A model generated the notes under the pieces. It had not been told where the DNA came from and did no database searches. It saw nothing but the letters and a program-made list of their open reading frames with translations. Of a stretch of 38,491 bases of DNA, positions 27,332 to 27,579 are shown in pieces. Position 1 is the first letter of the stretch, and the number at the start of each line of letters is the position of its first letter. The stretch lies in NCBI GenBank assembly GCA_021323995.1, contig JAJPJY010000153.1, forward strand, positions 1-38,491. Direction: 5' to 3'. A program made the position numbers and the translations under genes. The DNA comes from a bacterium (GTDB taxonomy: Archaea > Thermoproteota > Bathyarchaeia > 40CM-2-53-6).

Positions 27332-27463
27332 TGGTGCTCCGGGCGGGAGTCCCAGACTCAAGCCGAGTCTTTTGAACTCGCGGACTTCACCGTATGCCGG
27401 CGAGTCTCCCGCGATCAACGGCTCGAAAGGCCGCTATGCAAAACCGGGCTACACCACCGGAGC
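27332..27463 (-). tRNA. tRNA-Glu(TTC) interrupted by two introns in the T arm
   Basis: Minus strand: GCTCCGG TG GTGT-AGCCCGGTTTT-GCAT A GCGGC-CTTTCGA-GCCGT TGATC GCGGG [31-nt intron] TTCAAA [22-nt intron] T CCCGC CCGGAGC ACCA. Both introns fold into hand-checked bulge-helix-bulge motifs. Introns: 27377-27407 and 27349-27370. Confidence 0.9.
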
Positions 27464-27579
27464 GACAGTACTCTTTAGAAAGGTTTCATTTACCTTTTGG
27501 TAGCAATCTGGAACTAGGAAGACGGGGCCCTATGCGACGCTGGACCCTTTCGCGGTTCTACTTAGTTCTGACCCTTTGG

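Follow-up and report, generated by a model that had tools for sequence, protein, structure and literature searches.

A tRNA-Glu(UUC) gene of a Bathyarchaeia archaeon with two predicted bulge-helix-bulge introns in the T arm

Structure of the gene and its introns

The window, which is the whole stretch of 38,491 nucleotides analysed here (contig JAJPJY010000153.1), contains a tRNA-Glu(UUC) gene with an encoded CCA end that is read from the sequence on the minus strand at positions 27463-27332 (Table 1). The acceptor stem is formed by GCTCCGG (27463-27457) and CCGGAGC (27342-27336), after which come A73 and CCA (27335-27332). The anticodon loop, CTTTCGA, contains the anticodon TTC, and GCGGG (27412-27408) pairs with CCCGC (27347-27343) in the T stem. 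All of these elements had been named in an earlier note on this DNA and were found at the positions given there, and the stems are all intact. The same note had placed a spurious open reading frame over part of the locus; mechanical ORFs of 29-76 aa do overlap it, while none of at least 80 aa is present there. At the contig edge, positions 1-60 of the window hold a partial 5S rRNA on the minus strand.

Table 1. Features of the tRNA-Glu(UUC) locus, with coordinates in the window (BHB, bulge-helix-bulge)
Feature	Coordinates	Strand	Description	Basis
Upstream element	27481..27500	-	CCAAAAGGTAAATGAAACCT, 18 to 37 bases before the tRNA, conserved	similar block in relatives
Exon 1	27408..27463	-	tRNA positions 1-53: acceptor 5' strand, D arm, anticodon arm (TTC), variable loop, T-stem 5' strand GCGGG	sequence
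Intron A	27377..27407	-	31 nt, at 53/54	strict BHB; motif as good as the real one in 99 of 200,000 dinucleotide shuffles
Exon 2	27371..27376	-	six nucleotides TTCAAA, T-loop positions 54-59	sequence
Intron B	27349..27370	-	22 nt, at 59/60	strict BHB; motif as good as the real one in 261 of 200,000 dinucleotide shuffles
Exon 3	27332..27348	-	position 60, T-stem CCCGC, acceptor CCGGAGC, A73, encoded CCA	sequence

The block upstream of the gene is alike, and lies at equal distance, in four relatives (L007, L011, L012 and L051); it is likely to be an archaeal BRE/TATA promoter.

The exon-intron junctions were assessed with a strict criterion for BHB motifs, namely two 3-nt bulges around a 4-bp helix with the cuts two bases into each bulge. 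In intron A, the central helix CGCG/CGCG has 4 of 4 pairs and the inner helix GACT/AGTC has 4 bp. The central helix of intron B, TTCA/TGGG, likewise has all four pairs, two of them G-U, and its inner helix, GACTC/GAGTC, comprises 5 to 6 bp. The folds proposed earlier thus hold for the central and inner helices of both introns, while the outer helix of intron A is imperfect, consisting of TTGA/TCAA plus one additional unpaired T. The proposed limits of the two introns agree with the strict motifs, with the comparison of about 45 loci and with the shuffles. The boundaries of intron B are free of ambiguity. For intron A, the spliced alignment also allows an edge 1 nt earlier (52/53), giving an identical product, and the position 53/54 was adopted because it is the one picked by the BHB geometry. 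As a possible sign of intron transposition, a second copy of intron A with up to 3 mismatches was sought in the host genome, and none was found.

Conservation in relatives, detection and splicing machinery

Relatives were sought with the conserved 5' end of the gene in 100 related genomes and in the GTDB collection, where the matches were metagenome-assembled genomes, nearly all of Candidatus Bathyarchaeota; their sample-depth names indicate that the hosts probably come from soil. Almost all same-genus genomes contain a single matching tRNA-Glu gene. The exceptions are G011 (52% complete), with no matching gene, and G003, with a second, degenerate-looking match. The latter (L004) begins like a tRNA-Glu gene at its 5' end, but no 3' part can be recognised, and it is possible that it represents a pseudogene or one half of a split tRNA.

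The predicted spliced product is identical to the same-genus consensus at 78 of 79 positions. Exon 1 equals that of the same-genus relatives apart from position 21 (27440, D loop), where the window gene has T and every aligned relative has A. The counterpart of exon 2 in relatives is TTCAAA or TTCGAA, and the exon 3 junction, GCGGGTTCAAATCCCGCCCGGAGCACCA, runs unbroken in four relatives that have no T-arm introns (L023, L025, L031 and L033). The T arm is uninterrupted in several same-order relatives and is identical to the product predicted for the window gene, GCGGG-TTCAAAT-CCCGC, as the earlier note had foreseen. Among the relatives the spliced sequences are nearly invariant, while the introns differ in length and sequence and are not always present. 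The 59/60 intron occurs in all same-genus tRNA-Glu(UUC) genes but one, and both 53/54 and 59/60 are filled in five relatives (L006, L020, L022, L026 and L030); in these and in the window gene the 53/54 motif is strict (6/6). The one gene without a 59/60 intron (L017, tRNA start near locus position 1498, plus strand) has no T-arm intron and carries a 32-nt acceptor-stem intron at 70/71.

Neither ARAGORN nor Rfam detected the tRNA-Glu gene in the unspliced window DNA; the spliced product is reported by ARAGORN as tRNA-Glu(ttc). A search for another intact tRNA-Glu(TTC), proposed as a check on whether this copy is dispensable, found none in the assembly, which is 85.7% complete, so that the window gene is the only UUC copy found. 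The other tRNA-Glu found in this genome (L003) reads CTC and has D-loop and 59/60 introns. Introns at 59/60 were also seen in further tRNAs of the same genome (L087, L088 and L090, besides L003), and L090 has in addition an insertion of about 100 nt between the anticodon and the variable region. A pattern search of the genome for 59/60 introns gave 7 matches versus 8 in the reversed control, that is, no excess; four of the matches are clearly tRNAs by eye. Only 17 tRNAs are seen by Rfam in the assembly.

Two proteins of the splicing-endonuclease family PF01974, of 189 and 185 aa, are encoded by the host genome. The first closely resembles archaeal EndA chains of known structure (E 1e-43 to 1e-34); the second is divergent, and no catalytic histidine motif is recognisable in it by eye. 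The combination of one EndA-like chain with one divergent chain without this motif suggests that the two proteins are the alpha and beta subunits of an (alpha-beta)2 enzyme. RtcB is also encoded.

Thirteen same-genus relatives combine a 34/35 intron with a 38-42-nt insertion at 37/38 that lacks a direct strict BHB motif. In nine of the 13 (L005, L006, L008, L009, L010, L013, L014, L015 and L018), exactly one split divides this insertion into two abutting introns such that excision of the second gives the first a strict canonical motif. Of single-base shuffles of the insertion, 0 to 4% can be split in this way; the abutting introns share one GGAG-type segment. For L020 the split requires one relaxed pair; a different split is possible in L012 and L016, and none in L017. 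The odds are about even that the 37/38 pair is stacked, the small intron abutting the 3' end of the other and blocking the canonical motif until it is excised, so that tRNA-Glu(UUC) of soil Bathyarchaeia would contain up to five BHB introns and the window gene would be a simpler member of the group; since the relatives are not independent of one another, the evidence for stacking is only suggestive. Stacking, if right, gives many genes four introns, and five in G004 (L006) and G005 (L020): at 34/35, two at 37/38, 53/54 and 59/60. Without it, four introns are counted in G004, G005 and G025. The gene L026, from a same-order genome, has four introns irrespective of stacking, at 20a, 34/35, 53/54 and 59/60. 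The stated maximum per archaeal tRNA is three introns (PMC8450103, PMC4033280), and in the literature searched neither Bathyarchaeia tRNA introns nor archaeal tRNAs with at least four introns were found. The intron count in relatives is the lead most worth following.

Order of intron removal and function of the gene

The order of splicing was examined by cloverleaf-constrained folding at 37 C, because unconstrained minimum-energy folding failed to yield a cloverleaf even for the mature tRNA and was dropped. In the full precursor the helix probabilities are 0.18 for the T stem, 0.71 for the central helix of intron A, and 0.00 and 0.99 for the central and inner helices of intron B. Removal of intron A raises the T stem to 0.99, in line with the earlier claim that the outer helix of intron B is the T stem and forms once intron A is gone. 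Removal of intron B first gives 0.88 for the T stem and leaves the central helix of intron A at 0.11, which would disfavour later removal of intron A. As this helix and the T stem cannot use their shared bases at once, the model favours A before B, and it is somewhat more likely than not that intron A leaves first. It had been claimed that ordered splicing is required; the preference for A survives, whereas the obligation was put too strongly, since, even with intron A removed, the predicted minimum is 3.9 kcal/mol more stable than the strict motif of intron B, and the same fold test was mixed across the five relatives with both introns, the energy gaps in the test (1 to 5 kcal/mol) being near the model error. 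A paper on whole tRNA sets also describes archaeal splicing as not dependent on the final tRNA structure (PMC4307357). The proposed order is plausible, favoured rather than required.

The same two introns might instead be removed in either order or concurrently, with intron B cut via a relaxed motif that does without the T stem as its outer helix. Such a course fits the mixed outcome in relatives, the probability of 0.99 for the inner helix of intron B in the full precursor, and the B motifs of several relatives, which have just 3 of 4 central pairs; (alpha-beta)2 endonucleases are described as accepting relaxed motifs (PMC3978253, PMC7714728). It is weakened by the loss of the central helix of intron A when intron B leaves first, and appears to be a tentative option, at less than even odds. 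Ordered removal of nested or close archaeal tRNA introns has already been described (PMC3978253, PMC8450103), which makes the removal of intron A ahead of intron B less surprising, and tRNAscan-SE 2.0 iterates its intron search because of nested introns (PMC8450103).

The window gene probably encodes (probability about 0.88) a functional and probably essential tRNA-Glu(UUC), the two T-arm BHB introns of which would be spliced by an (alpha-beta)2 endonuclease and RtcB. The transcript would bear both introns in the T arm, and the host endonuclease would cleave each at its own BHB motif. As long as intron A is present, its central helix would occupy the 5' strand of the T stem; after its removal the T stem could form and serve as the outer helix of the intron B motif. 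Ligation of the exons by RtcB would then yield a normal tRNA-Glu. This reading is supported by the conservation of the product at 78 of 79 positions while the introns vary, by the exact predicted junction sequence in relatives with an uninterrupted T arm, and by two BHB motifs that outperform shuffled sequence. The single UUC copy found, the conserved upstream element, the two PF01974 proteins and RtcB point the same way.

The T at position 21 could reflect an error in base calling, a substitution that the tRNA tolerates or the onset of decay. Decay is the basis of a different explanation, in which this T, like the second T-arm intron, is a sign of a degenerating pseudogene, and the real tRNA-Glu(UUC) lies in the missing 14% of the genome. 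The incompleteness of the assembly and a base unlike that of all aligned relatives are compatible with it; against it stand the intact stems and conserved exons, the conserved upstream element, the strict BHB motifs and the presence of a single matching gene in nearly all same-genus genomes, so that a pseudogene is very unlikely. That the locus is no tRNA and merely resembles one by chance, as could be supposed from the silence of Rfam and ARAGORN on the unspliced DNA, is refuted by the comparative data and has a negligible probability: a gene with the same exons is found in nearly all same-genus genomes, the near identity of the product to the genus consensus excludes such a resemblance, and ARAGORN accepts the spliced product. 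The proposal of a tRNA-Glu(TTC) with two T-arm introns, made in the earlier note, is borne out by this consensus and by the strict motifs at both junctions. Judged from its sequence, the window gene is a real archaeal intron-containing tRNA gene, ordinary in kind, the T arm of which is unusually crowded with introns.

Significance and comparison with known systems

Heavy non-canonical interruption of tRNA genes extends, on this evidence, to Bathyarchaeia that probably live in soil. With ARAGORN and Rfam, which both fail to detect the only tRNA-Glu(UUC) found, the genome would seem unable to read GAA. The T arms of the closely related genes contain from zero to two introns and their anticodon loops up to three insertions, which makes these genes a natural series for testing intron gain, loss and splicing order.

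Multi-intron pre-tRNAs with non-canonical BHB introns have been described in Thermoproteales (Pyrobaculum and Thermofilum) by Sugahara et al. (2007, 2008), as reported in PMC3218864, PMC4033280 and PMC8450103. As in the genes outlined in these reports, the system considered here has several short BHB introns per gene at non-canonical positions including the T arm, and an (alpha-beta)2-type endonuclease, here predicted from sequence. Unlike the hyperthermophilic Thermoproteales, the host of the window gene appears to be a soil Bathyarchaeia archaeon, and, in contrast to the Thermoproteales genes as portrayed there, both introns are located in the T arm with an exon of 6 nt between them.

Nested archaeal tRNA introns, in which the last BHB motif is formed only after the others leave, were described by Tocchini-Valentini et al. 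(2009) and Sugahara et al. (2007), according to PMC3978253. Similarly, the motifs of the window gene overlap, and one intron would probably precede the other; unlike in the nested introns as summarised in that source, the shared element is the T stem, and the order is derived from folding alone. Finally, the T-loop splice position 59/60 is shared with the permuted tRNA genes of Thermofilum pendens, which are joined at 59/60 (PMC3218864), but the exons of the window gene are in the normal order.
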